DNA of 38,358 nt. Source: Treponema sp. (GTDB lineage Bacteria; Spirochaetota; Spirochaetia; Treponematales; Breznakiellaceae). The translations under genes and the position numbers were made by a program. Each line of letters begins with the position of its first letter. Position 1 is the first letter of the stretch. The stretch covers positions 1 to 38,358 of the forward strand of contig JAISZE010000126.1 in the NCBI GenBank assembly GCA_031269405.1, read 5' to 3'. This document shows, piece after piece, positions 3,555 through 25,208 of the stretch. The notes beneath the pieces are model-generated. The model saw only the letters and a program-made list of their open reading frames with translations. It searched no databases and was not told the DNA's origin.

Positions 3555-6500
3555 ATGTGCAATAAAACGAGAACGCTGGTTTTTTGGGTAGTATGGATGG
3601 GGGTATCCGCATCTATCCTTTGGGCAGGGGGCCGGAAGGATAACGAATCCCATGAAGTGGATAATCCCGCTGGTTTCACCGAATCCATTGATATTGAGGG
3701 CAAACCTTCAGGGAAGTACAATTTTGTCCTGGAGGCCAAGGATAAAGGGGGGAATACCGCCTTTGCAGGGCCTGATAACATTTATATCGATCCCGCGTCG
3801 GATCTCCCGGGCGCGAGTATCACGAATCCCAGGGAAAACATGCATGTCCAGGGGCACCTGAACATCGTTGGGACCTGCGTGGACGATGACGGCGTGGGTT
3901 ATGTAGACCTGGTTATCACCAGAGGCGCTGACGGCAAAGGGGAAGTGCTGGTTCAGGACCGGGCTGAAGGCGCCGAGTTCTGGTCTTACTTCCTTGACAC
4001 ATCGAATGAGGAAAAATGGCCTGACGGCGTTTATACCATAACCGCCTGGGGTACCGATATAAACGGCCTTTCGGGTATTTCCGAGAATTTCCCCCTAAAA
4101 GTGCGGAAGCAGCACCAGGTGTATTGGAATCTGGACCGCAGAAAGCCCGATACAGTCGTCACAAGCCACGAACTGGGCGCCCTGGTTTCGGGGAAAATCC
4201 GGGTAAAAGGTACTGTCTGGGACGGCAACGGCTTGGATACCCTTGCTTATTCCACAGACGACGGGAACCGCTATACCTACCTTTCGATGAAATATGATAA
4301 GAAAAACGATCTGTACAATTTTGATCTTGATATTGATACCAAAACGTTTACAGACGGCCCTGCGGTAATCTGGTTCCAGGCCCGGGACATGATGGGCACT
4401 TTGGGCGCTGCATCCCACCTGGTCTTTGTCGACAATACCGGCCCTGAGGTGCAGGTGGTTTATCCCGAAGCTGATGCGGCGGTGAACGGCATCTTTACGG
4501 TAGCCGGTTTAGCCCAGGACACGGTGGGTCTTAAATCTCTTAGCTGGAAACTGGGCAAAGACACCGGCGAATTCTCCCTGGTTACCGGGAATCCCTGGTG
4601 GATTAAGGAATTCGACATCCGGGGCCAGAAAACTAAAAGCCTCGACCTGGAGATACGGGCGGTAGACCTTTCGGGCAACGCAACGGTAACAAAGCGGAAG
4701 ATCCTGGTGGATCAGGACGCGGATCTGCCCAGGATCACCCTGCAGGAACCTGCAGCGGGAACGGTTATTTCCACCCAGGGCATGAACCTTACAGGATTTG
4801 CCGGAGACGACGACGGGGCCGCCTCGATTTTCTACGCCATAGACGCAGGAGAGCCTGTGGAGATACCCTGTTCCGGCTATTTCCAGCTTGTTATTCCCGG
4901 TATTCCCGACGGCGTCCATAACCTGGACATCTGGGCCAGGGACATAACCGGAATTGAGGGTCCCAAAGTACAGGTAAAGGGCATCGTAGCCCCAGGCATC
5001 GTTCCTGAACCCCGGATTACTGAAGTGCGCTACGGATCGGGCAAGACCGCTTTAATAGAGGAATTCTACACCGGCAAGGAACTCAACCCCGAATCCGGGG
5101 CGGTCCTGAATCTCGCTGTAAACGCCGGGAGCGCCCTTTCTTCCCTGAGTTGGCAGTTCGGGAATCATGAGCCGGTTACTGCCGCCCTGAAAGGCGCCAA
5201 ACCGGGGGCCTTCTATCAGGACATCAGCCTCCCGGCGGATATCGACTACGGCCTGGTAAAACTCCAAATCCGGGCGTCTGATGTTCATGGCCGCGAAGGG
5301 GTTTGGGACGAGTACCTGTATATTACGGATCTTTCCACCCCTAATCCCGATGAACTAGCCCAGGTACAGAGCAGGCCGTCTTCCGGGGCGGTACGGCTCG
5401 AAAGCCTCCGGGGCCAGCCCTGGCGGTCTGCGGCGGCTGTAGTCCTTCCCAGGGGTTCCAAGGAAGCTTTGCCCGTTACCGCCGCGGTTTCTTCAGACGT
5501 CCAAGTCGGTTCCGCGGTCTTTACCATAGGCGGCAGGACCGTTAAGGGATCCGCCAAAGCCTCCCCTGAGGGCGGCTGGCAGGTCAGCGCCGCTGTTCCC
5601 CAGGATCTTCCCGCAGGGCGCGTCACGGTAAGCCTTGACGTGGTTCTTAAAACAGGGGAATCCTACCAGGTTTCCGATGAGTTTTTCATTACAAGGCCCG
5701 CCGAAGACAGGCTGGTTAATACCGGCAGGGACTTCCAGTGGGTCAGGCCGGATACCAGTTTAGGCGGCGGCCGTATGCTCATTACCAGTTCCGGCGAACC
5801 GGTTACCGGCCTTTACAGCGGGCGGCCCCTTCAAAACGCCGAAATCGCGGGTTCAGGCGCGGAAAACCTGAGCGTCCGGCTGGATGAGTACGGCAGGGTA
5901 AGCCTCAGGGCAGGCGCCGAAGGCAGCTTTGGCCCCGTAACCCTGACCCTTACCGACAAAGACGGTTCGGTATACGAAACAGGCCAGTACCATTTCCTGG
6001 TGGATCTTGCTGATCCCGCCCTTGCGCTGGTAGAAGATCTGGAAGGCAAATGGGTGCAGAACAAGGTCCAGGTCAAGTTCAGCGCCAGTGACGCCAATGC
6101 CGTTAAGGCATTGGACTTCTCCACCAACCTGGGCGCTTCCTGGCAGCCCCTGCTGCAGAACGACGAGCTTGCCCAGGCGCAGCCCGGCGCGGAACTGGAA
6201 CGGACCCTGGACATTTCTACTCTCCAGGACGGGGCGGTAAACGTGAACATCAGGGTTACCGACGAGGCCGGCAGGGCGGCGGTAAAGACCTTCTCTGTCC
6301 TCAAAGATACCCAAGCGCCGCAGCCGCAGCTTATTGTGCCGGTTTCCGGCGCGAGGGTTAACGGTACTATACGCATAGGTATCGCCCTCAAGGAAGGGGG
6401 CCGGCTTACTTCGGTCAGGTATGAACGTCCGGAGATTCAGGACGGCGAAGAGACTATACCGGCTGTTACCCGGGATATTTATTCCGGCCCTGATCCTGAT

Positions 6501-8873
6501 ACGGAAAGCGCCCCTTATACCTTTGTGGATGTGCTTATGGACTCTCAGGAAATGCCTCTGGCGGCGAACATGAGCTTCACTTTCGAGGACGCCTCGGGGA
6601 ACAGATCATCCCTGAATACCTGGCCTTTCATCATAGACCAGCAAATGGACATCCCTGTGGCGCAGATAAGCCTGCCTCTGGAAAATGAAGTTATCACCAC
6701 CGATTTTGTTATCACCGGCATCATGTACGATGATGATGCGGTAAAGCAGATTTACTGGAAAATCGACGACAGCGAGGAAAACATCCTTGAAGCCGAAAAC
6801 GGTTATTCCATACCCATCGCCCTTTCCGGCATGACCGACAACGAGCATATCGTGACGGTAGTGGCGGAGGATATTTACGGCGTTAAAAGCGAGGCCGTAA
6901 CACAGAACTTCCGCATATCCCTGGAAGAACCCAAGGCTCAGGTGATGCTCCCGTCTTTTGACGAGATCATCAAAGGCACGGTGCAGATCTCGGGCGTGGC
7001 GTCTGACAAGAACGATATTGCTCGCATCCAGGTTTCCCTGGACAACGGCAACACCTACAACGACGCCTACGGCGCCACCGAATGGCTCTATCAGTTTAAT
7101 ACTAAAATCCTCCAGGACGGGACCCATGTGGTCTTTGTCCGGGTATGGGACGGCTACAACATCAGCGCCCTTTATTCGAGCCTTATCAACGTGGACAACA
7201 CTCCTCCTGAAGTTGTGCTTGACGCGCCTCTTGACGGGACCATGACGACCGGGCCTGTGTATATTACAGGCCGCGCCATCGACCTTATCCAGCTCGAAGA
7301 CATCACCATAGAACTGCGGAGCCTTGACGGGAACCCGGTTTCCGAAGAAATGGCAACCCGTCATGCGGAACCTGCCTCTATCCTTATGGAGGAACTGAAC
7401 CTTGCGTCTCTGCGGGACGGCCTTTATAACATCGAAGTATGGGCCGTCGACAAGGCCGAAAACGTAACCAGGGTTTCCCGGAACGTGGAACTGGCAAAAG
7501 ATAACCAGCGGAATTTTGTCGATATACTCTACCCCCTTAACGGCGAGCATGTGCAGGGGACTTTTAACCTCTACGGCGCAGTAGGGGGCATCGACAAGGC
7601 CGCACAGGTAACCATTCTGGTTGACGGCAAAAACGCGGGCACCGAACCGGTTACCGAAGCCGGGTTCTACCGCTTCTCCCTGGGCAGCGAACACCTGAAC
7701 GGCGGACTCAACCAGATCGTGGTGCGCAGCGACTTTGGCGGCAAGGAGACGGTGGATTCCGAAATCCGCAGTATCTATTACCGGCCTGACGGCGCCTGGG
7801 TAACCATCGACAGCCTCAACATGGGCGATTTCGCTTATGAACGGCCCTGGCTTACCGGAAGGGCGGGATATTCCCTTACCGCAGAGGACGAGGAAACCCT
7901 TGCGGACAAGAAGGCCGGCAAGGAACTCAAGGAGTTTATCAAGACCAAAGCCCTGAACTATATCGATCTTTCCTTTGATAACGGCAAGACCTTCTTCCCT
8001 GCTGATGAAAGCCGCGATAAGGAGTCGGACTGGCGTTACCGCCTTGAAACCGGCGAGATGGCCGAAGGCCTCCATTACCTTGTGGTCAGGGCCAATATGC
8101 TGGACGGCGAAACCGCCATTACCAGAACCTTGGTCCAGGTTGACAAGACCCCGCCGAAGATCCGCCTTGTGGCGCCCCAGGCCGGGGGCCGGTATAACCA
8201 GACACTGGAATACACCGCCCTGGCAAGCGACGATGTGGAGCTTAAAAGCCTTTCCTACCACCTGCGTAAAGGCGACAAGGCCCTCTACGCCGTGCCGGGC
8301 TTTATCCAGGGCCTCTACTTCGACTTTACCATACCGCCCTTTATCAAACAGATATGGAACAACGCGCCGAGTATTTTCGCAGGCGGCGCCACGTACATGG
8401 ACTTCGGCGTGGGCCTCTCGTTCTTTGACGACAATGTGAAGGTACAGGCCCAGTACGGCTTTATGACCCAGGATCTTTACGAAGGCATAGGCGGCGTCGG
8501 GGATCTCCGCTACGGCGGCCATGTCCTGGGCTTCAAGCTCCTGGCTAATCTTTACACCCTGCCTTTCGGCAGTCTCGCCGGCCCTGACTGGGACTGGCTC
8601 TATGCGTCTTTCGCCCTTGGAGCCAACTTCTCCCTTTTCGACCTGGCCCATGAAGGCTACACCCAGAGCGGTAAATCCACCTGGATGAGCGCCGTCCTGG
8701 CACAGATCGAGTTTCCAAAGGTAACTATTCCCAAGCGGACCAAGCTGCGGACCTTCAGTCTCTTTACCGAAGGCCAGCTCTGGTTTGTGCCCACTGACGT
8801 TGACGCCGATGCTGTGGGCATTGATACGATCATTCCCCATGTAATAGTGGGACTGAGGATATACGTCTTTTAA
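3555..8873 (+). CDS. Giant Ig-repeat surface protein with C-terminal beta-barrel-like domain
   Basis: A 1772-aa exported protein of no recognised function. Residues 1-26 form a signal peptide (basic start, hydrophobic core, Leu-Trp-Ala before Gly-Gly). About a dozen modules of roughly 90-110 aa follow. Each opens with a Val-Asp-X-X-X-Pro strand, then a Pro-X-(8)-Gly-X-hydrophobic-X-hydrophobic-X-Gly core and a Gly-X-Tyr/His-X-hydrophobic closing strand, the pattern of bacterial Ig-like (Big_7-type) domains. The last ~190 residues differ: seven or eight amphipathic aromatic-rich strands with Gly/Asp turns, ending in Ile-Tyr-Val-Phe, a terminal Phe typical of BAM-assembled outer-membrane barrels. 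I chose ATG 3555 over an upstream in-frame TTG (3525) because AAAGGGG lies 6 bases before it and it gives a clean signal peptide. An 8-bp stem-loop spans the stop codon (8859-8880). Confidence 0.85.
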   Translation: MCNKTRTLVFWVVWMGVSASILWAGGRKDNESHEVDNPAGFTESIDIEGKPSGKYNFVLEAKDKGGNTAFAGPDNIYIDPASDLPGASITNPRENMHVQGHLNIVGTCVDDDGVGYVDLVITRGADGKGEVLVQDRAEGAEFWSYFLDTSNEEKWPDGVYTITAWGTDINGLSGISENFPLKVRKQHQVYWNLDRRKPDTVVTSHELGALVSGKIRVKGTVWDGNGLDTLAYSTDDGNRYTYLSMKYDKKNDLYNFDLDIDTKTFTDGPAVIWFQARDMMGTLGAASHLVFVDNTGPEVQVVYPEADAAVNGIFTVAGLAQDTVGLKSLSWKLGKDTGEFSLVTGNPWWIKEFDIRGQKTKSLDLEIRAVDLSGNATVTKRKILVDQDADLPRITLQEPAAGTVISTQGMNLTGFAGDDDGAASIFYAIDAGEPVEIPCSGYFQLVIPGIPDGVHNLDIWARDITGIEGPKVQVKGIVAPGIVPEPRITEVRYGSGKTALIEEFYTGKELNPESGAVLNLAVNAGSALSSLSWQFGNHEPVTAALKGAKPGAFYQDISLPADIDYGLVKLQIRASDVHGREGVWDEYLYITDLSTPNPDELAQVQSRPSSGAVRLESLRGQPWRSAAAVVLPRGSKEALPVTAAVSSDVQVGSAVFTIGGRTVKGSAKASPEGGWQVSAAVPQDLPAGRVTVSLDVVLKTGESYQVSDEFFITRPAEDRLVNTGRDFQWVRPDTSLGGGRMLITSSGEPVTGLYSGRPLQNAEIAGSGAENLSVRLDEYGRVSLRAGAEGSFGPVTLTLTDKDGSVYETGQYHFLVDLADPALALVEDLEGKWVQNKVQVKFSASDANAVKALDFSTNLGASWQPLLQNDELAQAQPGAELERTLDISTLQDGAVNVNIRVTDEAGRAAVKTFSVLKDTQAPQPQLIVPVSGARVNGTIRIGIALKEGGRLTSVRYERPEIQDGEETIPAVTRDIYSGPDPDTESAPYTFVDVLMDSQEMPLAANMSFTFEDASGNRSSLNTWPFIIDQQMDIPVAQISLPLENEVITTDFVITGIMYDDDAVKQIYWKIDDSEENILEAENGYSIPIALSGMTDNEHIVTVVAEDIYGVKSEAVTQNFRISLEEPKAQVMLPSFDEIIKGTVQISGVASDKNDIARIQVSLDNGNTYNDAYGATEWLYQFNTKILQDGTHVVFVRVWDGYNISALYSSLINVDNTPPEVVLDAPLDGTMTTGPVYITGRAIDLIQLEDITIELRSLDGNPVSEEMATRHAEPASILMEELNLASLRDGLYNIEVWAVDKAENVTRVSRNVELAKDNQRNFVDILYPLNGEHVQGTFNLYGAVGGIDKAAQVTILVDGKNAGTEPVTEAGFYRFSLGSEHLNGGLNQIVVRSDFGGKETVDSEIRSIYYRPDGAWVTIDSLNMGDFAYERPWLTGRAGYSLTAEDEETLADKKAGKELKEFIKTKALNYIDLSFDNGKTFFPADESRDKESDWRYRLETGEMAEGLHYLVVRANMLDGETAITRTLVQVDKTPPKIRLVAPQAGGRYNQTLEYTALASDDVELKSLSYHLRKGDKALYAVPGFIQGLYFDFTIPPFIKQIWNNAPSIFAGGATYMDFGVGLSFFDDNVKVQAQYGFMTQDLYEGIGGVGDLRYGGHVLGFKLLANLYTLPFGSLAGPDWDWLYASFALGANFSLFDLAHEGYTQSGKSTWMSAVLAQIEFPKVTIPKRTKLRTFSLFTEGQLWFVPTDVDADAVGIDTIIPHVIVGLRIYVF

Positions 8874-8921
8874 CGTATATGCGCCATTAGTTGAGTTTAT
8901 AGAGGTTTTGTGGAGGTGTTT

Positions 8922-11900
8922 ATGTTCGGGTCAGGGAAAATTCGCGTTCTGACGGCTGCTGCTGTTTGTATATTTTGTGTTTTTTCTGCGGCGTTTTTCA
9001 GTACTTGTAAGCAAACTGTCGGATTCGGGACGGAAATCGACTTTACGCCCCCGGTCTTGACCTTGGACCCCGGCCCAAACCCGCGGTATGTAACGAATGG
9101 CTATGTCCTGGAAGGAACCGTTACGGACAATATGGCGGTAACCGAGGTGATAATAACCGACGAATCGGATCCCGCCAGGTATGCTGACGGTAAATTCCCG
9201 GTTATCGCCAGGGCTGTCATTAACGGAAGCAGGTGGCGTACGGAACTCCATTTTACCTCCGGCGACAACGGTCGCAAGATCGCCGCGGTAATAACCGCCT
9301 ATGACAGGATGAGGAACGCAGGGGAAAATTCCATACAAACCATAAACTTAATTGTTGATACCAGCCCCCCTGTGTTCTCCGGAGTCGAAATCGTGCGTTC
9401 CTCTACGTATGGAACCCTGGGATCTCTTGCGCCCGGGGCCGAACTCACAAATCTTGAACAGAGCGATCCTCTTGCAAATGACAGCGCCAATGTGGACCGG
9501 TACCAGAATGGGTGGTTCTATATCCGCGCCCATGTGTCCGAAATGGAAACCAATATTGGGCAGGAGGGCCGGGAAGTAGGCGGGGAAATCAAACAGATAG
9601 ACATGGTTTATATGGATATCTATGACGCGGATCATGATACTGAAGATGAAGTACTGTTATCCGGTATTCCTCGCGATGAATCTATAGGAATGAAGTATAC
9701 CCCTTACTGGCTTATCAAAACCGAAGATCTTATAACCGCAGGAAACGCTAAAGCTGCGGAGAACCCGGAATGGCTTGATTTCGAGGGCCAGAACTACCAG
9801 CAGCGCCTCGATGCAGGCCGGCGGCTGTACTTCCGGGTGAATTTGAAGGCCGTTGACCTGAGCGGGAACCCCGGCGAGCCTCCTCAGGAGAAGGTGGAGC
9901 AGCAGCTCTATTTCTGCATACTCCCAAGTGCGGATCTGCCCCGTGCCCAGACCGAAGGCCTGTTGCGCGATGAAAAAGGAAGCATCTACGTTTCCAAGGG
10001 CACCGATATTCCGGTAGAGGTTTACGATGACGACTATATAAGCGAAGGCTATGTGGCCATGATCAGCGTGGATCAACAGTGGGATGTTCCGGAATATTTT
10101 GGATGGTCCGAATGGCCAGACGGCATCTTTTATCCCCCTGAGTACAGAAAAGACAACGTGCCGGAGCCTGAAGATCTAATAACAGCGAAAAAAGACCGGC
10201 TTCTGGAGCTGCTTAGGCCGTCGGAAGAAAACCCCACCCCCGATCCTGTCTACGACTGGACGAATGCCAAAAACCCCGCAGACATAACCGGGCAAATAAA
10301 GGACCGTTACAAAGGCAAAACCCTCAGGGAGGACATGATCTTTGTCAAAACCGGCAATGAGGATTCGGACTATGGCGCTTACAAGCTTATTATGTTTGTG
10401 CAGGACACCAAGTCCGCGCCTCATACGGAGGACGCGGAAGCCGTGTGGACTAAAAACATCGCGGACATCTTTGTATCCGATGAAAACGCCCCGCTCATTG
10501 TCTTTGATACTGTCAAGGTAGAGGATGGGGGTAAGGGGAGCCCTGAAGAAAATACCTTCCCTGCCCTGGACGCGGACGGACGGTCTTTTACCCTCTATGG
10601 ATATACGCTGGACGAAAACAGGCTGGGTTACGGCGGGGTAGACGTGGTCCGCATGGCCTGGATCCCCTACAATATCCCGGGCGGCGCTGACAGCCAAGTG
10701 TCCCAGGTACGCGCAGCCCTGGCAGACGGAGGGAATGACCTTTTGCTTAGTCTCCTGGACGATGGCATACGGTTCTGGACCTGGTACGCCGACGGTTCTG
10801 GAATGTACAATCTTACTGAGGGCGTTTCTGAATCCATAGGTGAGATTCCATACAGGCGCCAGGAATTTGAACTGAAATTGGACATACTCGAAGACTTCAA
10901 ATACAACGCTGAAAGCCCCTATGACCCGGCGAGCGGGACGCTTGAGAATGAAGCCAAGCTTTTCGTGGTTTATACCCGGGACCTCCAGAACCACGGCGTA
11001 TACCGGACCCTCCGGCTCCTGGGGAACAAAAAGCCCCCGGCGCTGACTGTTTTTGATGAAACTTCGAGGGTTACTTTTACCGTAACGGATACTAACAATG
11101 ACGGTAAAGATGATGCCAATCATTCTACCTATAACGGTAATATCGCTGATGCCGGGTATACATCAGCCAAAGTGGGGTATCCTCCTCTGGAAATCCTTCC
11201 CCCTACGGACATCAGCGTGCCCTTCCAGACTTACGCCAGGGGAACGGTCCTAAAATATTACGTTAAGGCCGATTTTTCCGGGGATCTTTCTATAGCCAAT
11301 ATAACCATGCAAGATGTGACGGAAACGGATAATCCCCGCAGTCTGGGCGAATACATACCCTTTGACAGGGAGTCTCCTGATACTACAGGATACCTGGTTT
11401 ATTACGAAGACCTCGAAACCGAGATAACCCAGCGGGTATTCCTCTTTACAGCCGAAGATATTTTGGGCAACAAAGCCGAGGCCCAGCGTACCATAGCCGT
11501 TACCAGCACCGCCTATCTCCAGCAGATCACCAGCCCTGATCCTAACGGCAGTTACGGCATCGGCCAGGAACTTACTATCAGGGGCGTGTTTTCCGCTCCT
11601 ATACAGGTAACCAGGGGAGACAACAGCGACGGCACAGATGAGAACGATGTACCTGTTCTGCACCTTTATTACACGGATTCCGCCGGATACGAAGTCGATG
11701 AACCTGTCAGGTACGCGGGGCCTTTCGATACCCCGACACTGTATCTGGACTTTAAATTTGCAGTTCCTGAAGGCGCCCGTTCCCTGCTTGCAAGCAGTAG
11801 TCCGGGCAATTCCAATAGCATCCCTATAACCTTGAACGGTAATTCCCCGGACCCCATAATAGGGAGCGCCAATATCGTGGACGTAGGGAAGGCAAGCGAC

Positions 11901-14900: not shown

Positions 14901-15296
14901 TCATTTACTTCCCCCAGGGGCAATAATACTTCCCGGGGCGTTCTGGACGGGTACGAGGGGGTTTTCAGGAGCGTCTTGATGATAGCGCAGCCTGCCATAG
15001 GGGATAAGACGAACTACAGGGTCCAGGGTTCCAATGTTCAGAACGCCAACCCGACTATTCCCGGTTTCCCGGTCCATGACAACGATCAGACCGACTGGCG
15101 TTTCAGCAAATATACATACAAGTATACAACCGGGAATCCCGGAAATTACCTCTGGGTAAGTACGGATATTGTGTCCCCCTGGTATATCATCATCATGGGT
15201 CTAAACAATGGCGTAGGCGGCCACGTACAGCGGGGCATGGTCAAGAACTATCTTTACGCCGGTTACGGCGATGTGTTTATGAGCTATAACCAGTAA
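8922..15296 (+). CDS. Giant multidomain lipoprotein A
   Basis: A 2124-aa predicted lipoprotein. The signal peptide ends Phe-Phe-Ser-Thr-Cys29, a relaxed spirochaete lipobox, followed by Lys-Gln-Thr-Val-Gly-Phe-Gly; the same Cys-Lys-X-X-Val-Gly-X-Gly opening occurs in the next gene. The body is a series of beta-rich Ig/SbsA-like modules (for example the Leu-Thr-Phe-Ser-Glu-Ala-Met strand near residue 1530). Two Asp-X-Asn-X-Asp-Gly loops start at residues 723 and 1670 and resemble calcium-binding loops. The C-terminal ~450 residues align by eye with the following protein, so the two are paralogues. The final ~250 residues are rich in Thr, Asn, Gly and Tyr. Start ATG 8922 is favoured over GTG 8910 because GGAGG sits 5 bases upstream. 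It lies 48 bp after the preceding gene, probably in the same operon. Function is unknown; a surface role is inferred. Confidence 0.85.
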   Translation: MFGSGKIRVLTAAAVCIFCVFSAAFFSTCKQTVGFGTEIDFTPPVLTLDPGPNPRYVTNGYVLEGTVTDNMAVTEVIITDESDPARYADGKFPVIARAVINGSRWRTELHFTSGDNGRKIAAVITAYDRMRNAGENSIQTINLIVDTSPPVFSGVEIVRSSTYGTLGSLAPGAELTNLEQSDPLANDSANVDRYQNGWFYIRAHVSEMETNIGQEGREVGGEIKQIDMVYMDIYDADHDTEDEVLLSGIPRDESIGMKYTPYWLIKTEDLITAGNAKAAENPEWLDFEGQNYQQRLDAGRRLYFRVNLKAVDLSGNPGEPPQEKVEQQLYFCILPSADLPRAQTEGLLRDEKGSIYVSKGTDIPVEVYDDDYISEGYVAMISVDQQWDVPEYFGWSEWPDGIFYPPEYRKDNVPEPEDLITAKKDRLLELLRPSEENPTPDPVYDWTNAKNPADITGQIKDRYKGKTLREDMIFVKTGNEDSDYGAYKLIMFVQDTKSAPHTEDAEAVWTKNIADIFVSDENAPLIVFDTVKVEDGGKGSPEENTFPALDADGRSFTLYGYTLDENRLGYGGVDVVRMAWIPYNIPGGADSQVSQVRAALADGGNDLLLSLLDDGIRFWTWYADGSGMYNLTEGVSESIGEIPYRRQEFELKLDILEDFKYNAESPYDPASGTLENEAKLFVVYTRDLQNHGVYRTLRLLGNKKPPALTVFDETSRVTFTVTDTNNDGKDDANHSTYNGNIADAGYTSAKVGYPPLEILPPTDISVPFQTYARGTVLKYYVKADFSGDLSIANITMQDVTETDNPRSLGEYIPFDRESPDTTGYLVYYEDLETEITQRVFLFTAEDILGNKAEAQRTIAVTSTAYLQQITSPDPNGSYGIGQELTIRGVFSAPIQVTRGDNSDGTDENDVPVLHLYYTDSAGYEVDEPVRYAGPFDTPTLYLDFKFAVPEGARSLLASSSPGNSNSIPITLNGNSPDPIIGSANIVDVGKASDAFIPGSSHMAAWNAVDPRNLQGATPSDGKKLNLDGVKPEAGSFAVSGKTPYSTNPNIYHFKTNETILFTLKTQNADVNGNAEALRVNGNPAIRFTIGGAGPFYAGYLRPENSGQDVVFSYDVTASNNGKITVTGLGRYTGGVYDDHFDESNNITDAVGNYLADPDFGTLYTDEVYVDTAAPAAPVILLGPGAAGNDGVIVVPGSSKRYNYRPELTIMQPGWTAYPADPAGPATIAEPYETRVEYSLDSGLTWTEYYPTLNTGTGALIGDDDKLRIDAGTWHLTVRQTDPAGNVTDPVPAAVTVEIKDVFPRLVSVSLEEPNGTYTGGSDANKTVLHFNLDFADSVLTTSAAGDARAYIIICDPQYFSESVSSPAHPEAFVKIYADVNQTAPDTTTISFTWNITDEITDEITGSAANAKQMAKIAVKEIHLQGGVVDSFGNEGVNSHEVNYAPGGAGVITMNGDTAGTVSQRYPVEQNLNGDGVEVDAIVPELQSASPANANSGGPAYSAAPEATVMDAGITDNFVTSGNDTITLTFSEAMEKGMGTITVKPHGEFYIPPVLTNTEFYTIYNSDFYDYEGNNKGKLMEAADANEHKEYLTRSTNASDPTMYSLRTTAREGYSYGPYKQLTHGLKVGTGFTGSQLGTGPDRLIPDTSIKWVLDYRYEITGALDPNSLVDLNGDGTNDVALTDFTYFGFTGKADYIKKNNEVVTGIRKALKAARYRWAQVDVISSDVTIIDNKVTIKLPRTLEAGLEWDLYYDEGTFTDKAGNPAAGISDNGDFWFRSAGVQAPVIRVNRISYDARSGGTTGDDYYDITTTIGNNYWANTYGPMNANWNGSNMSPPIATFNRAAYRIDCETIGAAIESGVHGHTGTMQATTTFTNTATAENNTWETTTTGTPGQNVVRYFGTNNTSTTTIYVGANSAGQGDFRGRRSFNQDALLSAVKGVGMTTTLSESGVQSIEYSTTGQPAHNGNGSTEVPSLLAAKDYVTAAASVSYGSESFTSPRGNNTSRGVLDGYEGVFRSVLMIAQPAIGDKTNYRVQGSNVQNANPTIPGFPVHDNDQTDWRFSKYTYKYTTGNPGNYLWVSTDIVSPWYIIIMGLNNGVGGHVQRGMVKNYLYAGYGDVFMSYNQ
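13104..13127 (+). repeat. Two-copy 12-bp in-frame tandem repeat
   Basis: ATTACGGACGAA occurs twice in tandem inside the giant lipoprotein gene, giving Ile-Thr-Asp-Glu twice and then a degenerate third Ile-Thr. Being a multiple of three, changes in copy number would keep the frame. Confidence 0.6.
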
Positions 15297-15329
15297 AGGG
15301 GCTTTAGGAAAAGAGAAGGCAGGTACGAT

Positions 15330-18300
15330 ATGAAGAAGATAAACAAATACGGCGTTTTATTCAGCTTTTTAGGTATAAGCGCGGCGCTTTCCCTGGTTCT
15401 TTCCTGTAAGGACATCGTCGGCCTCGGGGACAAGCTGGACCTCGCGGGGCCGGTGGTCAATTTTACCACCCCCAATCCCAGGCAGTTGGTTCCCGAAGCC
15501 TTCCCCCTGGAAGGGACCATGACGGACAATACCGGCCTTGACCGCCTGCTTATCACGATACGGTATAACAAAGAGCTGGCGAACGGCGAATTTGGCAACG
15601 CAAATCTGCCCCGGCAGTGGCGCTACGCTTCCGGGCGCTGGCAGATCTCCGATAACAACGGCGCATCCTGGCATGACATTGAGGCCGGGGTTGTTAATGA
15701 TGCCGAAGGCGCTGTCCGCCCTCTTTCTGCCTGGGAAGGTAATGACCGTAAGGCGTCCTGGAAACTCTGGATAGACCTCAACATGGGCGGGGGCGTTGAT
15801 GTAGACGACGGGGATTACCAGATAAGCATGCAGGCCTGGAATACCAGCGGTTTTAGTGACGATAATTCCGTAAAAACCAGGACGGTTATTTTCGATAACG
15901 ATCCTCCAAAGGTTACCATCATATCCCCCCTGTTGTACCGCAAAACCGTTCAAGGTGAACAAGAGGAGTTGGAGGCCCTGAAAGCCGTAACCGAACGGCG
16001 GGACCCGGCGCTGATGGAAAAACTGCTTAACGAAAACGTGTTCCTCCAGTGGCAGATAGAGGACCGCCACGACATTGACCGGGTGGAGATCGAATTCTAC
16101 CTAGAATATGATGACTTCAGTACCGATCCGCTTCCTAAAGATCCTCTTTATACTTTCCCTATTGATGTGAGCGGCCAGCCCCCGGATCTTACAAAGCCCA
16201 ACGGCAATTTCACTGTTCCCGATTTGACTGCCGCCTTAATTGACCGGTATACTAGTGACGGCGAAACACAAGACGGTGCAACGGCTAAAGCCAGAGGCAA
16301 AAACGTACTCAAAGCCGTGGCTGTAGCCTACGATAAAGCGGGACATAACAGTTATAACGATATAGTCCAGGAAAAACTCATGGGCTTCTTCATGTACTGG
16401 CCCGACGCGGACACGCCGTGGGTTTCCTTTCCTGCAGGGCTTAATAGTACCTACCCCGTTAACGGCATCGACGAGATGTACACTATTTATCCCGGACGGC
16501 TTATCAAGTCCAACTCTTTTGACGATGACGGCGTTGACCGGGTGTTGTACAGCATTTACCCTGTAGACAGTAATCCTCCTCATACCATTGGACGCGATCC
16601 TTTGGATGAAAACTACCCTAAGGATGAGAACTACAGGAAACTCTATTTTGACAAGTTCGTGAGCAATCCGAAACGCTGGGATGGTACCAAGACCACCACC
16701 TTCCCCTGGGACTTTCTCCCTCCTGGGACAACAGGCGAATATTACCTTGTCGCCAGAACCATTGATTATAAAGGCGTTGACTTAAAGGACGGGGACTTAA
16801 CGCTTGAAGATGCGGGTGATAAGGAAAAAGCCCTGGAAAGGAAAATCAGGGAAGCTGTCAAAGCTATAAGCGGCGCTAATGACTTTGAAAAAGACTTAAA
16901 AACCGCTCTTGTGAAAAATGCGGAAGACAAAACCGTGGCGGTCATTTCCGAAGCCTTTACGGGCTATGTCAAGGTGCAGGACATTTCCTTCCCTGATTTC
17001 CCGGTTCCCCCTGAGCCCAACTTCAACCAGCCCCTCTACACGGCCCCTGGGGTCAGAGATGGGAAAATCACCCTTAAAGGTACGGTTACCGATGATTCCG
17101 GCCTTGCTTACGATATTGTAAACATCAACGGCGAGGATGTTGAAGTACCCTATATCTCCATAGTCTGGATCAACCCCGAATCTCCCAATTACGCGGCTAT
17201 GAGCCAGCTCGCCTATTTCAGGGACCCCAACTACGAAGGGTGGAAGGTTGCGAAGAGCCTTGTCTTTAGTGAACTCCAGCCGGTTTCTTCCCCGGAAACA
17301 GTATACAACACCGATTCTCCCAACCGGGTGTGGAAGGTCCCTGTTGTAAAACGCGGTGCCCTGGATTCGGAAACCGGGCGGACTGTGTATGATTACGAGC
17401 TAACCATCGACCTAAACACCGAAATGAACATCAATGTAGATGACATCGTGTCCAAGCGGCCTCTTTCGAGCCAGGTCTTCCTTCTTAAAGCCACGGATAA
17501 TTCTGGCACTCCTGACAACACAAATCTGGAAAATAACTTTAAAGATTCCAAATCTACGATTATCACCTATGCCCCGCAGGGAGACGCCATGGCGCCTTCT
17601 GTGTCAATTACTGAGGTGAAAATTGAACGGAAAGAAGGAGACGACTGGAAAGGATCGGGCGGTAATTCCGGCGGCGTCAATAGCGGCATCTACAAGCCCG
17701 GCGTCTATGCCGAGGCCCCGAGGTTTATAGACGGCGACAAGATTACCATTACCGGAACCTGGCGGGAAGACTCCGTCAGGGATAATGGGGACTCTGACAC
17801 CGCAGACAGCCGGTACATGAAGCTGGAATCGCTGATCAGTGAAATAACCATAAACGGCCAAGTTCTTAATCCCGGGGCGGACTATAATGATACTTCCAAC
17901 TCCAGCCAGTCAGGGATCAAGTTTGAAATCACCGATAAACTTACCGAAGGCAATACGGTTTATACCTCTGGAACCTTTACTGCCTGGGCCATAACCGGAA
18001 ACGCAAGTTCGTCAAATTGGGTAAAAACCGAAAAACTTTACGATGCCTTGGTTTTTAACGCCATGCTTACCGATGTAGGCGGTAATATTGTTGAAGACGG
18101 CTGTTCCTTCCTTATCCAGAGCGAAGTGCTTAAACTCCTGCGGATCTCAAGCGATCATGCCGACGGCCTTAACAAGGACGGCGAGAAGATAGAGATCTTT
18201 ATCGAGTTTAATAAACGGGTAAAACTTAAGAATCCCAATTCCGTACCTAAGCTGATCCTGAACAGCAAAATCGGCGCCAAAGCGGTATACGATGATATTA

Positions 18301-21300
18301 CCCAGGGTTCCGGTTACCTCGCAACGAAGCATTTCTTTATCTATGAAGTAAACTCCGGCGATTCCACGCTGGGACTCAATCCGCCTTACCTCAATGTGAT
18401 CTATCTGGATGGTGATGATACTACTTATGCTTTAGATACTTACCCCTTTGCCTGGGTAACTGAAGACGGACTTGAAGACATGCGGCTGTATCATACTAAC
18501 AAACCTGTAAATCCGCCTTCTCACTTAATGGCAGCCAAACTGCCCACTCAGGAACATAAGGACATCATGACCTCTGAGGAAACGCTGGAATACCTTTCCA
18601 CCCTGGCGGCTGGAAAGAACATTCAGATTGATACCCAACGGCCAGTCATCAATTCTATAACAACCACTACCCGGGACGGTAATTACCGTGCAGGCAGCCA
18701 GATCTATATTACCCTTACCTTCAACGAACCTGTTAAGCAGGGCAGCGTTTCTCCCGCCCTTACCCTAAACGCAGTGAATGGTTCCAATGACGCCTTAGCG
18801 GGTAATCCTGTTTTCGGTTCCGAGACGGTTACCTTCCGCTACGACGTGGAGGATGGGTACAACACCGAAGGCTGGTCGCATCTTATGATTAATGGGATTC
18901 CCGGTACATCCAGCGGCGTCAATCAGACTATTACAGACCTTGCAGGGAACCCCCTGTCTGTTGTTACCGGAAGTTTCCCACGTTCCATCGTAAAATCAAC
19001 CGGCGGTGGTTCCAATATCGTTATTGATACCACCGATCCACGACCGCCTACTCTGACTGTTACCGGTAACGGTACTGATCTTACGTCCGTGACCCCAAAC
19101 CTCTATTATAACGCCTTGGGCTTGAAGATCGCCGCCGATTCTGCCAGTGCAAATACAACTCATGAAATTCAATATCTCGAATATTCGGTTAACAACGGCA
19201 TTGACTGGATCAGGGGAACTCCGAACCCCGACACCGGTAACCTGACGCATACGCTTAACCTTCCGGGTTCGTATACCTTTATCGCCAGGCAGATCGATGT
19301 GGCCGGGAATGTTTCTCAAAGTTCAGCGCCGGTTACCGTTTTCTGGGATAAAGGCGATTTTATCACACGCATCAGCTCTGCAGCGCCTAACGGAACTTAT
19401 ACAAATAATGATGCCAAAGGCCCCCAGTCCATACCCATTGACGTGTACTTCCGCAAACCCGTAAAGGTAACAGGAAGCCCGTTTATCATCCTTAATTCCG
19501 AGGATGAGTCTGATTTCAAAACCGTAGAGGCCGATCTATCCCAGTCAGCCGGCAATGCGGAAGACGGCTATACTTCCCTCCGCTTTACTTACGGTATAGG
19601 AGAAAACGATAACACGCCGCTGCCTTCTATGCCGTCATATAGCGATGAGTGGCTTGATGTTACCGGTATAAGTCCCGGCAGCGAAGAAAACGCCAAATTT
19701 ACCGACGCCGAGGGCGTTGATGTTACCCACCTGGTAAATCTGAACCAGGTACTTTCTACCTTAAAACGGCTCAAGGACCTCAAGAAGTTCAGGGTGGTAA
19801 CCGGCCCGCTTCTCATTACCGACGGACCTGACTTTACTAACGATGCAGTCAACGGAGGCCACACCCTGACCTTCACCTTTAACCGGGACATTTACCGGGG
19901 AACCCAGAAGGTAGACGGGAAAGACAATACCATCACCATTATTCAGGCCCCAGGTACAACTGAAGATACCCTGTACCGGATTCCGGCTGTGCTTACCGAA
20001 ACCCAGTACGCCAGGTTCAGGAATTTAGAGGATTTTGATATCTATTACGAAAAGGGAACCAACGGCATCAGGGAGTCTTCGAGCCAGATCGTTACCGATA
20101 CAGCTACCAAGTATGTGCTCAAGGCCGCCTACAATACCCGCCAATACAATAGTACCACAAATACCGGAGGTGTAGGTGGTAGGGCTTTTGCCGAAGCCTT
20201 CAGGGAGGCTGAGGAAATTAAACTCCCCATAAACGCCAGCATGGTAAGCGTTGCCGGCAACACCCTGACTATCCACCTGAGGGGCAGCAACGCCCTCCAG
20301 GTAGAAGGCGCGGAGTACGAGATCTATACTAACGAAGGTTTTGTCCAGGATATTCTGGGCAATCCTTCCCCGGCGATAGACGAAACGCATGAAGTCAGCA
20401 CAATTGGATTCCTGATAAGCAAGCCCTTTATCCGGGTCAGCAGCAGCCAGGAAACCATTGGACGCCAGACCGTAACCGGAACGGATCCTGAGTTCTATAC
20501 TGTTACCCAGCCCTATACCGCAAGGGTCCAAATAGACAGCCGGACTCCCGGTTCAACTATAGAATGGAGGGCTATAGACGCGATAACCAACGTGCCGGAT
20601 ACTAACTATGCTAATGCTTCTAGCCTACAACCAACGGTAGTCAGTGCGCCAGCGTATAATCAGCCTGCAACTGGGCGCGCTAGAAACAGTACTACTGCGA
20701 ACCAGTATTCAGTTACCATACCTTATACCTCGACAGAACAGAATGTGTACCAGGGATACCAATTCAGGATCAGAGCCTGGGCTAGAAAAGAGGATACTCC
20801 ATTTAACCAAAACGAGTTTACCGAAAATATGGCCTGGCGCTCGGTGGTAACTTATAATATTAATACTTACGGAAGCTTGGGCACCCTTGGGCAATCGTTG
20901 CAGAACGGCGATCAGGTCTGGATCAGAGGCGGAAACAACCTTACTACCTCGGACATACCCGGTTATCCCCTTACCTGGGAAGACAACTTTGAAGGCTTGC
21001 AGGGAACCAGCCAGCGCGCCGGCATCAGGCTGATGACAAAAGACTCCCAGACAACAACCAACTATGCAGGGGATACAGGTCGTAGTATCTGGAAATGGCT
21101 TACCTGGGGCGTTACTACCCGTACCTATATCCACTTCTACCTGGGCCGCTCAGGCGAGTATGACGGCGGCTTTCCTACAGGGGTCATTGCCGAAACGGGT
21201 GAACCGGACGAAAAAGCTAACAGAGTATGGAAGTACGGGCCGTATATTTTCTCCAGCCAGCGGGCAGGGTGGACAAACAAGAAACCCAATTTCCCTCTCT

Positions 21301-21422
21301 ATCCGGGAGGGCACACGTGGCTAAGAATGAATTCAGATCCAAATGATAATGATATTCCATCGTTTGTTACTAACATGATCAACCGTCCATGGAACCTAAC
21401 CCCGCCAGAATCGCAGGAATAG
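15330..21422 (+). CDS. Giant multidomain lipoprotein B, paralogue of A
   Basis: A 2030-aa predicted lipoprotein with signal peptide ending Val-Leu-Ser-Cys26, then Lys-Asp-Ile-Val-Gly-Leu-Gly, matching the opening of the preceding protein. The first module after it (Pro-Leu-Glu-Gly-Thr-Met-Thr-Asp-Asn) also matches (Val-Leu-Glu-Gly-Thr-Val-Thr-Asp-Asn in A). Several Ig/SbsA-like modules follow, e.g. those beginning Arg-Pro-Val-Ile-Asn-Ser-Ile and Pro-Arg-Pro-Pro-Thr-Leu. The C-terminal third shares with A a Thr-Leu-Thr-Phe strand, a Pro-Ala-Val-Leu-Thr-Glu-Thr block and a Gly-Asn-Pro-Ser-Pro-Ala element. It starts 33 bp after A with a modest purine-rich ribosome site. An intrinsic terminator follows 58 bases after its stop. 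I do not recognise an enzymatic domain. The tandem arrangement points to duplication and divergence of one ancestral gene. Confidence 0.85.
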   Translation: MKKINKYGVLFSFLGISAALSLVLSCKDIVGLGDKLDLAGPVVNFTTPNPRQLVPEAFPLEGTMTDNTGLDRLLITIRYNKELANGEFGNANLPRQWRYASGRWQISDNNGASWHDIEAGVVNDAEGAVRPLSAWEGNDRKASWKLWIDLNMGGGVDVDDGDYQISMQAWNTSGFSDDNSVKTRTVIFDNDPPKVTIISPLLYRKTVQGEQEELEALKAVTERRDPALMEKLLNENVFLQWQIEDRHDIDRVEIEFYLEYDDFSTDPLPKDPLYTFPIDVSGQPPDLTKPNGNFTVPDLTAALIDRYTSDGETQDGATAKARGKNVLKAVAVAYDKAGHNSYNDIVQEKLMGFFMYWPDADTPWVSFPAGLNSTYPVNGIDEMYTIYPGRLIKSNSFDDDGVDRVLYSIYPVDSNPPHTIGRDPLDENYPKDENYRKLYFDKFVSNPKRWDGTKTTTFPWDFLPPGTTGEYYLVARTIDYKGVDLKDGDLTLEDAGDKEKALERKIREAVKAISGANDFEKDLKTALVKNAEDKTVAVISEAFTGYVKVQDISFPDFPVPPEPNFNQPLYTAPGVRDGKITLKGTVTDDSGLAYDIVNINGEDVEVPYISIVWINPESPNYAAMSQLAYFRDPNYEGWKVAKSLVFSELQPVSSPETVYNTDSPNRVWKVPVVKRGALDSETGRTVYDYELTIDLNTEMNINVDDIVSKRPLSSQVFLLKATDNSGTPDNTNLENNFKDSKSTIITYAPQGDAMAPSVSITEVKIERKEGDDWKGSGGNSGGVNSGIYKPGVYAEAPRFIDGDKITITGTWREDSVRDNGDSDTADSRYMKLESLISEITINGQVLNPGADYNDTSNSSQSGIKFEITDKLTEGNTVYTSGTFTAWAITGNASSSNWVKTEKLYDALVFNAMLTDVGGNIVEDGCSFLIQSEVLKLLRISSDHADGLNKDGEKIEIFIEFNKRVKLKNPNSVPKLILNSKIGAKAVYDDITQGSGYLATKHFFIYEVNSGDSTLGLNPPYLNVIYLDGDDTTYALDTYPFAWVTEDGLEDMRLYHTNKPVNPPSHLMAAKLPTQEHKDIMTSEETLEYLSTLAAGKNIQIDTQRPVINSITTTTRDGNYRAGSQIYITLTFNEPVKQGSVSPALTLNAVNGSNDALAGNPVFGSETVTFRYDVEDGYNTEGWSHLMINGIPGTSSGVNQTITDLAGNPLSVVTGSFPRSIVKSTGGGSNIVIDTTDPRPPTLTVTGNGTDLTSVTPNLYYNALGLKIAADSASANTTHEIQYLEYSVNNGIDWIRGTPNPDTGNLTHTLNLPGSYTFIARQIDVAGNVSQSSAPVTVFWDKGDFITRISSAAPNGTYTNNDAKGPQSIPIDVYFRKPVKVTGSPFIILNSEDESDFKTVEADLSQSAGNAEDGYTSLRFTYGIGENDNTPLPSMPSYSDEWLDVTGISPGSEENAKFTDAEGVDVTHLVNLNQVLSTLKRLKDLKKFRVVTGPLLITDGPDFTNDAVNGGHTLTFTFNRDIYRGTQKVDGKDNTITIIQAPGTTEDTLYRIPAVLTETQYARFRNLEDFDIYYEKGTNGIRESSSQIVTDTATKYVLKAAYNTRQYNSTTNTGGVGGRAFAEAFREAEEIKLPINASMVSVAGNTLTIHLRGSNALQVEGAEYEIYTNEGFVQDILGNPSPAIDETHEVSTIGFLISKPFIRVSSSQETIGRQTVTGTDPEFYTVTQPYTARVQIDSRTPGSTIEWRAIDAITNVPDTNYANASSLQPTVVSAPAYNQPATGRARNSTTANQYSVTIPYTSTEQNVYQGYQFRIRAWARKEDTPFNQNEFTENMAWRSVVTYNINTYGSLGTLGQSLQNGDQVWIRGGNNLTTSDIPGYPLTWEDNFEGLQGTSQRAGIRLMTKDSQTTTNYAGDTGRSIWKWLTWGVTTRTYIHFYLGRSGEYDGGFPTGVIAETGEPDEKANRVWKYGPYIFSSQRAGWTNKKPNFPLYPGGHTWLRMNSDPNDNDIPSFVTNMINRPWNLTPPESQE

Positions 21423-21478
21423 AGGGATCCTGCCGGGGATCCTGGGGTTGCTTCCCGGCTGGTAGTGTAAGAATCTAT

Positions 21479-21506
21479 AACGGCAGCCCATGGGCTGCCG
21501 TTTTTT
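21479..21506 (+). terminator. Intrinsic terminator after giant lipoprotein B
   Basis: A perfect 20-bp palindrome (CGGCAGCCCA and its complement, 21481-21500) is followed directly by six T residues. Folded with a 4-base loop it gives an 8-bp GC-rich stem. It separates the two giant lipoprotein genes from the smaller lipoprotein gene that follows. Confidence 0.88.
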
Positions 21507-21520
21507 GCCGGTACTACGAT

Positions 21521-21527
21521 AAGGAGG
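21521..21527 (+). promoter_or_regulatory. Misplaced consensus Shine-Dalgarno
   Basis: AAGGAGG lies 22 bases before the ATG at 21550, too far for normal use. Reading from the nearest potential start (CTG 21531) hits a stop after three codons. The nearer AGGA at 21541 is the likely working site, leaving the better one unexplained. Confidence 0.35.
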
Positions 21528-21549
21528 ATACTGATCACATAGGATTTTT

Positions 21550-23196
21550 ATGAAAAGGGCGGTGATATTCCGGGTATTTTTTTCTTTCCTTATCCTCATC
21601 TTCCTGGTCCGCTGCGGAGGCGCGTATGCCCCTGTGGATACCCCTGAATACTATTTTATAACCGATCCCTATTACGGCCCTAATGGGGATGGGGTTATCG
21701 TTCTGGAGCAGCATATAGGGGAGGCAGGGTTTGATTATGAGCTTGTCCTTGACAACATTATTCCAGAAAATGCCCGGATTACCAGGGGCAGGGAATATGA
21801 AATTGAATTTACCGCCAGAGTACACGAAAAAAATGCCCCTATTCCGGTTAACCAACTGGAAGTAACCTTGTTTGATCCCAATGGCGTCCGGGGGCCTGAT
21901 ACGGTCCTGGGTTTTTACGATAACCGCAAGGAATACCCTAATTACGGCGATACTCCGGCTGCCTTTTCCTTCAGGTTTATTGCCGCCGAGACCGCCGCAG
22001 ACAAGGGGCCTTCCCACAACCAGCTCCGTATCAATACCGTTGCCGGGAAATTTCCAACAGCGCCGGACTTTGGCACTAGCAAGCAGCAGATCAGGTTTAC
22101 CAATGCCTCGATTGTCATCCGGGACAAGGGCGTACCCCTTAACGGGTCCAGAGGGAAATTTCAACCTGACGGCGCTTACTCGTTTCTTGTCCAAACCTGG
22201 GATTCGGAAAACTGGACATCAGCAACCTGGGATTTAAACAAGACAATCCTGAACATCCCTTATTCCAGAACTATCCCCGCCAATTATGTGATACCATTTA
22301 CCATTTATCTTCCCAGGGATACACCGCTGTTTAACAATTACCTTATGGTCAGGGGATCTGTTTTATTCCGCAAGACAGATACAGGGGAGTTGGAACCCTG
22401 GATGCCCATAGAAAGCGATGCCAAGCGGTTCAGGTATAACAAATTTTCACCCCAAGGGGATTACCTTGTAGCCAGCGGTTTTTTCAGAACCAAGGATGCA
22501 CCCTTTGAGAGTAATGACGCCCATACGCTGGAGGATCTTGTTTTCCAGGTTGCAGGGTATGAATGTTCCTATATTGACGAAAACACTACCCCTATAGAAA
22601 ACGGGAACGTTAACACCCCGGGGGCTATAAAACTGGATCCTCTCAAGGAATACGTGCTTCCTGAAGGTAAAGATACAGGGGTAAATTACGAATTTGATAA
22701 TGAGACCAGTCAGTTCTCTTCCAGTGCTATAGAACTGCCCCATCCTAAAACCCCGGACGGCGATTCAATTGCCCTAAAACTGAGTTATGATGTTTACATT
22801 CCCGAACAGAATACCCTGGAAGGGGCAATCCAGATAAAATTTACCGGTATTATGCTTTCCTCCAGCGGCAGTTGGAATTTCACGGAATTCGCCGATTACG
22901 CTCCTCTTGAAGATGCCGAATCGGGCCAGCCCTGGGGCATGATCTTCCTGTATCCAAACAGTTTTGGCCCCTCTGAACAAGGCTGGCAGAAAACCACGGT
23001 AACCAGGTATCTCAGCATCCACAAAAATAATATAAAGTACACCGGCGCCCCTTTGAGTTTTTCCGGTCAGGATTACTGCACTGCGGACTTTACCGGCTAT
23101 AAGTGGTACTTTGACGGTTACGGCTACGACAGCGGTCTTTTCAACATTGACAACGTGGTCCTGGAATATGTATCCCAGGTCCCCGCAGGGTCTTAG
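21550..23196 (+). CDS. Lipoprotein with jelly-roll (CBM-like) domains
   Basis: A 548-aa predicted lipoprotein. Residues 1-21 form the signal peptide, with Leu-Val-Arg before Cys22; Arg at -1 is unusual even for spirochaetes. An N-terminal region (about 40-200) contains a Gly-Arg-Glu-Tyr-Glu-Ile-Glu-Phe-Thr-Ala-Arg strand. A C-terminal region (about 370-545) closes with Gly-Leu-Phe-Asn-Ile-Asp-Asn-Val-Val-Leu-Glu-Tyr-Val. Both resemble strands of carbohydrate-binding-module-type beta sandwiches, where an Asp-Asn-Val ending is common. The similarity is by pattern only. It follows the giant lipoproteins but lies beyond a terminator, so it may have its own control. A role in glycan binding next to a surface apparatus is inference. 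Confidence 0.8.
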   Translation: MKRAVIFRVFFSFLILIFLVRCGGAYAPVDTPEYYFITDPYYGPNGDGVIVLEQHIGEAGFDYELVLDNIIPENARITRGREYEIEFTARVHEKNAPIPVNQLEVTLFDPNGVRGPDTVLGFYDNRKEYPNYGDTPAAFSFRFIAAETAADKGPSHNQLRINTVAGKFPTAPDFGTSKQQIRFTNASIVIRDKGVPLNGSRGKFQPDGAYSFLVQTWDSENWTSATWDLNKTILNIPYSRTIPANYVIPFTIYLPRDTPLFNNYLMVRGSVLFRKTDTGELEPWMPIESDAKRFRYNKFSPQGDYLVASGFFRTKDAPFESNDAHTLEDLVFQVAGYECSYIDENTTPIENGNVNTPGAIKLDPLKEYVLPEGKDTGVNYEFDNETSQFSSSAIELPHPKTPDGDSIALKLSYDVYIPEQNTLEGAIQIKFTGIMLSSSGSWNFTEFADYAPLEDAESGQPWGMIFLYPNSFGPSEQGWQKTTVTRYLSIHKNNIKYTGAPLSFSGQDYCTADFTGYKWYFDGYGYDSGLFNIDNVVLEYVSQVPAGS

Positions 23197-24620: not shown

Positions 24621-24872
24621 ATGAGCGCAAGCATCAGGCTCAAAAGATTCGGAACCAAAAAACGTCCTTTTTACCGGATTGTCGTCATTGACAAGCGGGC
24701 GCCTAGGGACGGGAAGACTATCGAGGAAGTCGGGTATTATCATCCTATCGAAACAGAAGACAAGCAGATCTCCTTTGACGCTGAAAAAGTAAGGTCCTGG
24801 ATAGATAAGGGCGCCACTGTCAGCGATACGGTCCGGGGTATTCTTAACAAAAAGAATTTCGCAATAAAATAG
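24621..24872 (+). CDS. rpsP: 30S ribosomal protein S16
   Basis: An 83-aa small-subunit protein that stabilises 16S rRNA folding. The N-terminal strand ([19 protein letters not shown]) and the Gly-Tyr-Tyr-His-Pro segment are diagnostic, and the length is normal. GAGGAGGG at 24610-24617 is a strong ribosome site. It heads the operon rpsP-khpA-rimM-trmD-rplS, behind a dedicated promoter and folded leader. Confidence 0.97.
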
Positions 24873-24934
24873 CGCTTTAAGCGCTGGTTTTGTACCCATT
24901 CTGTTTCCCGTTTCAATTCATAAGGAGAAAATTT

Positions 24935-25168
24935 ATGGAAAAAGATCTGGTTGAATATATCGTCAAATCCCTGGTGGATGATCCTTCACAGGTTGTAGTA
25001 AACGTGGTTGAAGGCGAAAAGTCCACTATCCTGGAACTCCGGGTGGCTTCTGATGATATCGGCAAGGTAATCGGCAAACACGGCCGTATTGCCAAGGCCA
25101 TACGGACGGTTCTCCTGGCGGCTACTGCCAAGAGCGGCAAGCATACGGTGCTGGAAATCTTGGACTAA
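24935..25168 (+). CDS. khpA: KH-domain RNA-binding protein KhpA
   Basis: A 77-aa single KH domain containing the Gly-Lys-Val-Ile-Gly-Lys-His-Gly-Arg loop that contacts RNA, framed by the expected strand-helix order. KhpA (YlqC) partners KhpB in Gram-positive bacteria and acts as a global RNA-binding factor; the conserved site between rpsP and rimM supports the call. I start it at ATG 24935, since AAGGAG lies 7 bases upstream and the 15 extra residues of the longer frame are not conserved-looking. Confidence 0.93.
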   Translation: MEKDLVEYIVKSLVDDPSQVVVNVVEGEKSTILELRVASDDIGKVIGKHGRIAKAIRTVLLAATAKSGKHTVLEILD

Positions 25169-25208
25169 AGTCCGCTGGACTCAGGGTTCGGATTAAAACC
25201 CTTGGCGT

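Follow-up and report, generated by a model that had tools for sequence, protein, structure and literature searches.

The window analysed here, a 38,358-nt stretch of a Treponema sp. contig (JAISZE010000126.1), carries on its forward strand four consecutive open reading frames (ORFs): A (3555-8873, 1772 amino acids), B (8922-15296, 2124 amino acids), C (15330-21422, 2030 amino acids) and D (21550-23196, 548 amino acids). A encodes an exported protein with immunoglobulin-like (Ig) repeats and a C-terminal outer-membrane barrel, B and C two giant lipoproteins. A and B start with ATG, that of B behind GGAGGT, and the gaps are 48 nt (A-B), 33 nt (B-C) and 127 nt (C-D). The span from A to D takes up 51% of the window, and the layout described in an earlier note on this DNA, four same-strand genes of these sizes occupying half the window, was borne out. 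Features of A to D given below lie on the forward strand unless marked (-), as do the hairpin after C and the methyltransferase gene.

Protein A begins with a signal peptide without a lipobox (3555-3626), for which cleavage after ILWA (ILWA-GGRKD) was read by eye; AGG.KD is frequent at this site in the consensus of an alignment of A homologues (A1). It continues with an Ig-like array (3627-8288, about 1,554 amino acids, an estimated 15 domains or so) matching Pfam families Big_7 (E = 2.3e-37), Big_13 and Big_3_3. The remaining part (8289-8870), ending in Phe, was predicted by a structure model to form an outer-membrane beta-barrel of 8 strands (model residues 171-355). Its closest structural neighbours were small outer-membrane barrels, mostly 8-stranded, with OprF, NspA and OmpA at the top, and a terminal Phe was found in 21 of the 22 aligned barrel rows. 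Loops L1-L4 showed mean identities of 0.27, 0.35, 0.24 and 0.51 and lengths of 5-33, 7-23, 8-30 and 8-14 residues, and turns T1-T3 showed identities of 0.95, 0.73 and 0.53 and lengths of 4, 11 and 8-9 residues. The even number of strands, the variable loops and the nearly fixed turns would place the Ig chain of A in the periplasm, so that the label "outer-membrane stalk" given to A in the earlier note is probably wrong in detail.

Of 7991 candidates scored in a protein database search, 467 were homologues of A at E<=1e-3. The nearest, 90% identical, belongs to a metagenome bin of Treponema sp., and Leadbettera azotonutricia ZAS-9 has a protein with 70-72% identity to A. No Pfam barrel family matched A or the barrel rows at E<=0.01. 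In the PDB, sequence searches gave no match to A at E 0.01, a best E of 0.37 with profile A2 and a marginal 0.033 with profile A4; the first Foldseek row for the A model was SiiE (E = 5.1e-3). An antisense open frame inside A (6606-8840 (-), 744 amino acids), with a 642-amino-acid counterpart in a related locus (L001), is probably a by-product of codon usage.

B and C both have a signal peptide and a lipobox cysteine, as read from the sequence and by an automated lipobox rule, which upholds their earlier designation as lipoproteins. Their paralogy, also claimed earlier, is real though remote: the best BLASTP stretch showed 37% identity over 78 amino acids, and profile-profile comparison gave probability 100 and E = 1.9e-58 over 1,460 columns. 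The C-terminal 336 amino acids of C (20412-21419) comprise an Ig-like domain and a conserved end domain with a weak CBM20-like resemblance; Foldseek and VIA-align of the predicted structure gave weak Ig and CBM20-like matches at most.

The bodies of B and C diverge faster than A. In ten relatives besides L001, identity to the window genes was 49-60% for A and 63-82% for its barrel vs 29-40% for B and 31-40% for C where present (9/10), several of these values covering partial lengths; in L001, A was 90% identical and B 74% over 295 residues. Giants of termite-type and oral/rumen treponemes aligned confidently mainly over the N-terminal 140-200 residues in profile-profile comparisons. Rapid change of the lipoprotein bodies while A stays stable agrees with the bodies being exposed and A serving as a fixed anchor, without proving either. 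Judging from the fast divergence and the variable bodies, B and C may plausibly be exposed at the surface.

Membrane-proximal motif of the giant lipoproteins

B and C share a short motif leading from the lipobox cysteine into the first Ig domain, CKQTVGFGTEIDFTPP in B (9006-9053) and CKDIVGLGDKLDLAGP in C (15405-15452). A pattern defined after examples had been viewed (cysteine, short spacer, [GAS][LMFV]G, Ig start) was present in 52 of 458 ORFs of at least 250 amino acids. For a second test, size and position alone were used to pick ORFs of at least 1000 amino acids that come next after A or after a further giant of this kind. Automatic matching found a lipobox and, no more than 15 residues behind it, [GAS][LMFV]G in 39 of these 42 giants; two of the misses show the motif by eye but fail the lipobox rule, and the third has ambiguous bases. 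The other ORFs of the same loci included 45 (of 445) with a lipobox, and 35 of the 45 were without the motif. The other ten were four giants, four ORFs cut by a locus end and the first pieces of two-ORF genes in L007 and L050. In these two loci, the motif giant behind A is split into ORFs of 290 and 1564 amino acids (L007:6777-12575) and of 433 and 2908 amino acids (L050:1668-11734), reflecting either a broken gene or a sequencing fault.

In an alignment of 38 sequences (A3), the cysteine, one glycine and a proline are invariant, and the spacer is 2-9 residues long. N-termini matched the model of this alignment from position 2-9, whereas the match of internal Ig domains mostly began at position 26 or later (at 21-24 in four of them), which indicates that the C...GLG part is more than Ig sequence. 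On the alignment, the distinctive part is C-x(2-9)-[GAS]-[LMF]-G together with the almost complete lack of a flexible tether. The largest motif-bearing open frames among the matches listed encode 7,564 (G017:C97), 6,549 (G017:C63) and 6,178 (G433:C1) residues.

Gene order and co-occurrence in relatives

When genome contigs were scanned without selection using the A profile, 40 loci were found, 39 of them with an A ORF by threshold (all except L039). A motif ORF lay directly downstream of A on the same strand in 22 of the 35 loci having a downstream ORF; most of these were giants, some were cut by the locus end and one was in two ORFs. Among further A loci, picked by hand for long contigs, the same was found in 13 of 19. 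In L025 and L036, the motif ORF is directly upstream of A. In all five genomes of the family of G021, a motif giant shares the contig and strand of A and lies upstream of it; direct adjacency was read in L036 alone, and frame lengths in the others are consistent with it. In this family the gene order is altered and the neighbourhood kept.

The earlier note had suggested seeking the four-gene order in other spirochaetes. The A-B-C part of it, with two giants after A, was recovered in 10 loci, and for these three genes the note's refuting condition, a lack of any co-occurrence in other genomes, did not hold. The motif of the second giant is visible in L002 and L007, where it fails a stricter pattern; in L034 ambiguous bases hide it. 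D had no counterpart after C in any of 8 relatives examined. The database search returned D itself as its sole homologue, and the 195 genomes of one family (that of G001) contained a single match (63 residues, E = 5.2e-4) inside a 754-amino-acid frame. A lipobox normally has a small residue at position -1, and the Arg at that position in D (LVR-C) is atypical. D had no Pfam or NCBIfam match and a best PDB sequence match of E = 0.41, and its description as a jelly-roll lipoprotein was not confirmed. Since these searches gave no counterpart of D, we judged that it is not a member of the module, and a module of four genes was rejected.

Other genes recur near A. In L031, L035, L048, L054 and L060, A is directly followed not by a giant but by three conserved frames of about 371, 481 and 791 amino acids, the second of them TPR-like by eye; in L054, two motif giants lie a few genes beyond. 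An MMPL-family exporter, a LolA_like protein and a third protein are encoded near a giant lipoprotein at L041:2423-7670 (-), and relatives of all three at L067:5975-9001 in a termite-type genome. The MMPL and LolA_like pair was dropped as a candidate part of the module, being downstream in 2 of 69 sources (the window and L001-L068), namely L041 and L067.

Co-occurrence was counted by hand from match lists of whole genomes, with the A and motif models both at E<=1e-10. In the family of G018 (274 genomes), 182 had both, 13 A only, 8 the motif only and 71 neither; the corresponding numbers were 34, 11, 4 and 146 in the family of G001 and 5, 0, 0 and 0 in that of G021. Fisher tests, which ignore shared ancestry, gave p = 1.4e-42 and 4.9e-24 for the first two families. 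With A at E<=1e-60, the counts in these two became 180/11/10/73 and 33/9/5/148, and the total over all three families 218/20/15/221. At the original threshold, A and the motif are jointly absent from 217 of 474 genomes, and one 1.1-Mb genome in the family of G018 lacks both. Two A-bearing genomes narrowly missed the motif cut-off (G064, 4.0e-10; G439, 1.6e-10), and draft assemblies may explain some of the genomes with A or the motif only. Several genomes in the family of G001 have shorter and divergent A-like proteins and no other A. Pairs of such barrel proteins (frames of 1,039-1,483 amino acids), a few kb apart on one strand, were seen in G003:C25, G007:C3, G390:C55, G391:C218, G439:C32, G441:C48 and G466:C88; G003, G007 and G391 have a full A as well.

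In the window, the block is flanked by ffh (2014-3363) and rpsP-KH-rimM-trmD-rplS (24621-26934). Pfam matches identified rimM, trmD and rplS, and the other three genes (ffh, rpsP, KH) were recognised by eye. In bacteria, ffh and the rpsP group are frequently neighbours, and here they are split by the giant block and a D12-class adenine DNA methyltransferase gene (23276-24415, Pfam) between D and rpsP. The latter has a G+C content of 0.369, against about 0.52 in its surroundings, and looks like a recent foreign insertion. A also lies directly behind ffh in L001. The C-D gap contains a terminator-like hairpin with a T-run (21479-21508, stem 21479-21502; -18.5 kcal/mol, z = -3.77 vs shuffles). 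It was not among the sites of a consensus terminator scan, which showed no clear excess (31 sites vs 23.1 expected, standard deviation 5.8), and promoter-like sites were at chance level (18 vs 18.5 expected).

Possible role of A and alternatives

With moderate confidence, we propose that A-B-C represents a conserved cell-envelope module of spirochaetes in which A anchors or positions the lipid-anchored giants. The small 8-stranded barrel of A would sit in the outer membrane, with the long Ig chain extending into the periplasm. After export and lipidation of the cysteine, B and C (elsewhere one or more other giants) would travel to the outer membrane, and there the lipid-adjacent motif and the first Ig domain may dock on A. 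The remaining Ig-rich, species-variable bodies would most likely be displayed on the surface for binding of a polymer, a host or a neighbour; we infer the docking, the display and the binding role from the results above. Of the dedicated multi-gene envelope assembly envisaged in the earlier note, the A-B-C order in 10 loci and the widespread company of A and a giant lipoprotein stand, and membership of D is not supported.

Several points weigh against this proposal. All support for it, that is, the barrel model, the motif, the adjacency, the genome co-occurrence, the B/C paralogy and the faster divergence of B and C, is computational. The barrel model is of moderate confidence (mean predicted local distance difference test score 74.5, predicted template modelling score 0.50), and a Foldseek search of the PDB with it gave no match at E 0.001. 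Ig domains ordinarily begin like the VD...P half of the motif, so that just a short stretch of it is unique; the lipoprotein control set was drawn solely from A loci, and the loci behind the motif model had been selected because they carry A. No motif ORF lies directly downstream of A in 13 of the 35 loci (L025 and L036 included), a strong motif match is absent from 24 of 245 A-bearing genomes, and A is absent from 12 of 233 motif genomes. Some A matches are weak, with a best E worse than 1e-60 in 4 of 195 and 3 of 45 A genomes, and those in G395 and G436 cover the Ig part only, which the A model includes.

Should the chain of A lie in the periplasm, B and C could lie there as well. The main rival, possible in our estimation but doubtful, is accordingly a giant Ig scaffold of all three proteins below the outer membrane, for sheath spacing or for guiding the periplasmic flagella. 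The comparable sizes of A, B and C and the near lack of a flexible tether between the lipid and the first Ig domain would suit such a scaffold. It would be unusual, however, for structural proteins to diverge as fast as B and C do relative to A, or to align between termite-type and oral/rumen treponemes mainly over the N-terminal region, and the 1.1-Mb genome does without A and motif alike. That the neighbours are ordinary Ig-repeat adhesin genes, adjacent by chance and co-occurring through shared ancestry only, is the least probable of the explanations considered. Ig-repeat giants are common in bacteria and the co-occurrence tests were uncorrected for phylogeny, but the genes stay neighbours in either order and also in a third family (that of G021), the motif occurs in no unrelated lipoprotein of the examined loci, and both partners are missing together from nearly half of the genomes.

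Two further alternatives assign an export function to A. If A were a surface stalk that leaves the cell by way of its own barrel or together with it, that would explain the autotransporter order of N-terminal repeats and C-terminal barrel, and PF03797 (Autotransporter) was weakly matched by 2 of 22 barrel rows (best E 0.014); eight strands rather than twelve, and OmpA-size barrels as structural matches, make this quite improbable. A Slam-like translocation device for the motif-bearing lipoproteins, which we consider very improbable, would account for a barrel gene adjoining lipoprotein genes, a large N-terminal part predicted to be periplasmic and clients with a common N-terminal motif. An 8-stranded barrel, however, is narrower than a conventional translocon requires. 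Slams were reported not to be found in spirochaetes, where a flippase was postulated (PMC7857515), which leaves room for such a device, but a Slam as described consists of TPR repeats and a 14-stranded DUF560 barrel (PMC5449769).

Within the anchoring proposal, A might be an outer-membrane receptor whose barrel recognises the C-x-GLG segment or has it threaded in, by analogy with RcsF and OmpA, the lipid being fixed at the outer membrane and the variable Ig bodies reaching the surface. We regard this specific version as unlikely; if true, spirochaetes would display lipoproteins by means of a barrel and an address motif, and we know of no such system in the phylum. More generally, A and the motif lipoproteins offer a concrete, removable gene pair for studying the sorting of spirochaete lipoproteins to the outer membrane and surface, apparently also in a cultured oral treponeme, in which the lipoprotein encoded beside A would have 2178 amino acids, and many of the largest treponeme genes are brought under one architecture.

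The pairing of A with giants across treponemes and relatives looks like an undescribed cell-envelope system. Our search, confined to open-access literature, listed no paper describing the pair in its title or the start of its abstract; we do not claim its absence from print, subscription papers being outside this scope. The longest gene of T. pedis (6,261 nt) is reported to encode a putative lipoprotein (PMC3747143); as a motif giant it is suggestive at most, since the gene lengths obtained here did not match. The T. denticola TDE27xx genes could not be tied to A or the lipoproteins from the parts of the sources covered.

Comparison with known systems

A shares with OmpA/OprF-type proteins an eight-stranded closed transmembrane barrel, predicted with moderate confidence. 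It differs in that the barrel is C-terminal, behind an Ig chain of about 1,550 residues, and no OmpA-like peptidoglycan-binding domain was found in A by Pfam or NCBIfam; the OmpA family proper has this domain at the C-terminus. Type Va autotransporters have a C-terminal barrel of 12 strands, as against eight in A. Like the SiiE-type giant adhesins, A, B and C are long bacterial chains of Ig domains, but A appears to be anchored by a barrel and the giants by lipid, and a Pfam scan covering 15 ORFs of the window found no type I secretion gene.

The likeness to Slam lies in an outer-membrane barrel with a large N-terminal part, encoded beside client lipoproteins. The N-terminal part of A matched Ig families, and neither TPR nor DUF560 had a Pfam match in A; relative to Slam (PMC5449769), A has Ig instead of TPR repeats and 8 instead of 14 strands, and its clients are giant Ig proteins. 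With RcsF-OmpA (RcsF in PMC7857515), the proposed system would share, as an idea only, a lipoprotein engaged near its lipid by a small barrel; the clients of A, however, measure about 1,600 to more than 7,000 amino acids, and the evidence presented here does not support threading. The surface lipoproteins of Borrelia are likewise spirochaetal and directed to their location by a membrane-proximal segment. Their tethers were described as having no apparent primary sequence conservation (PMC2987989), whereas the corresponding segment of the treponeme giants is conserved and very short.

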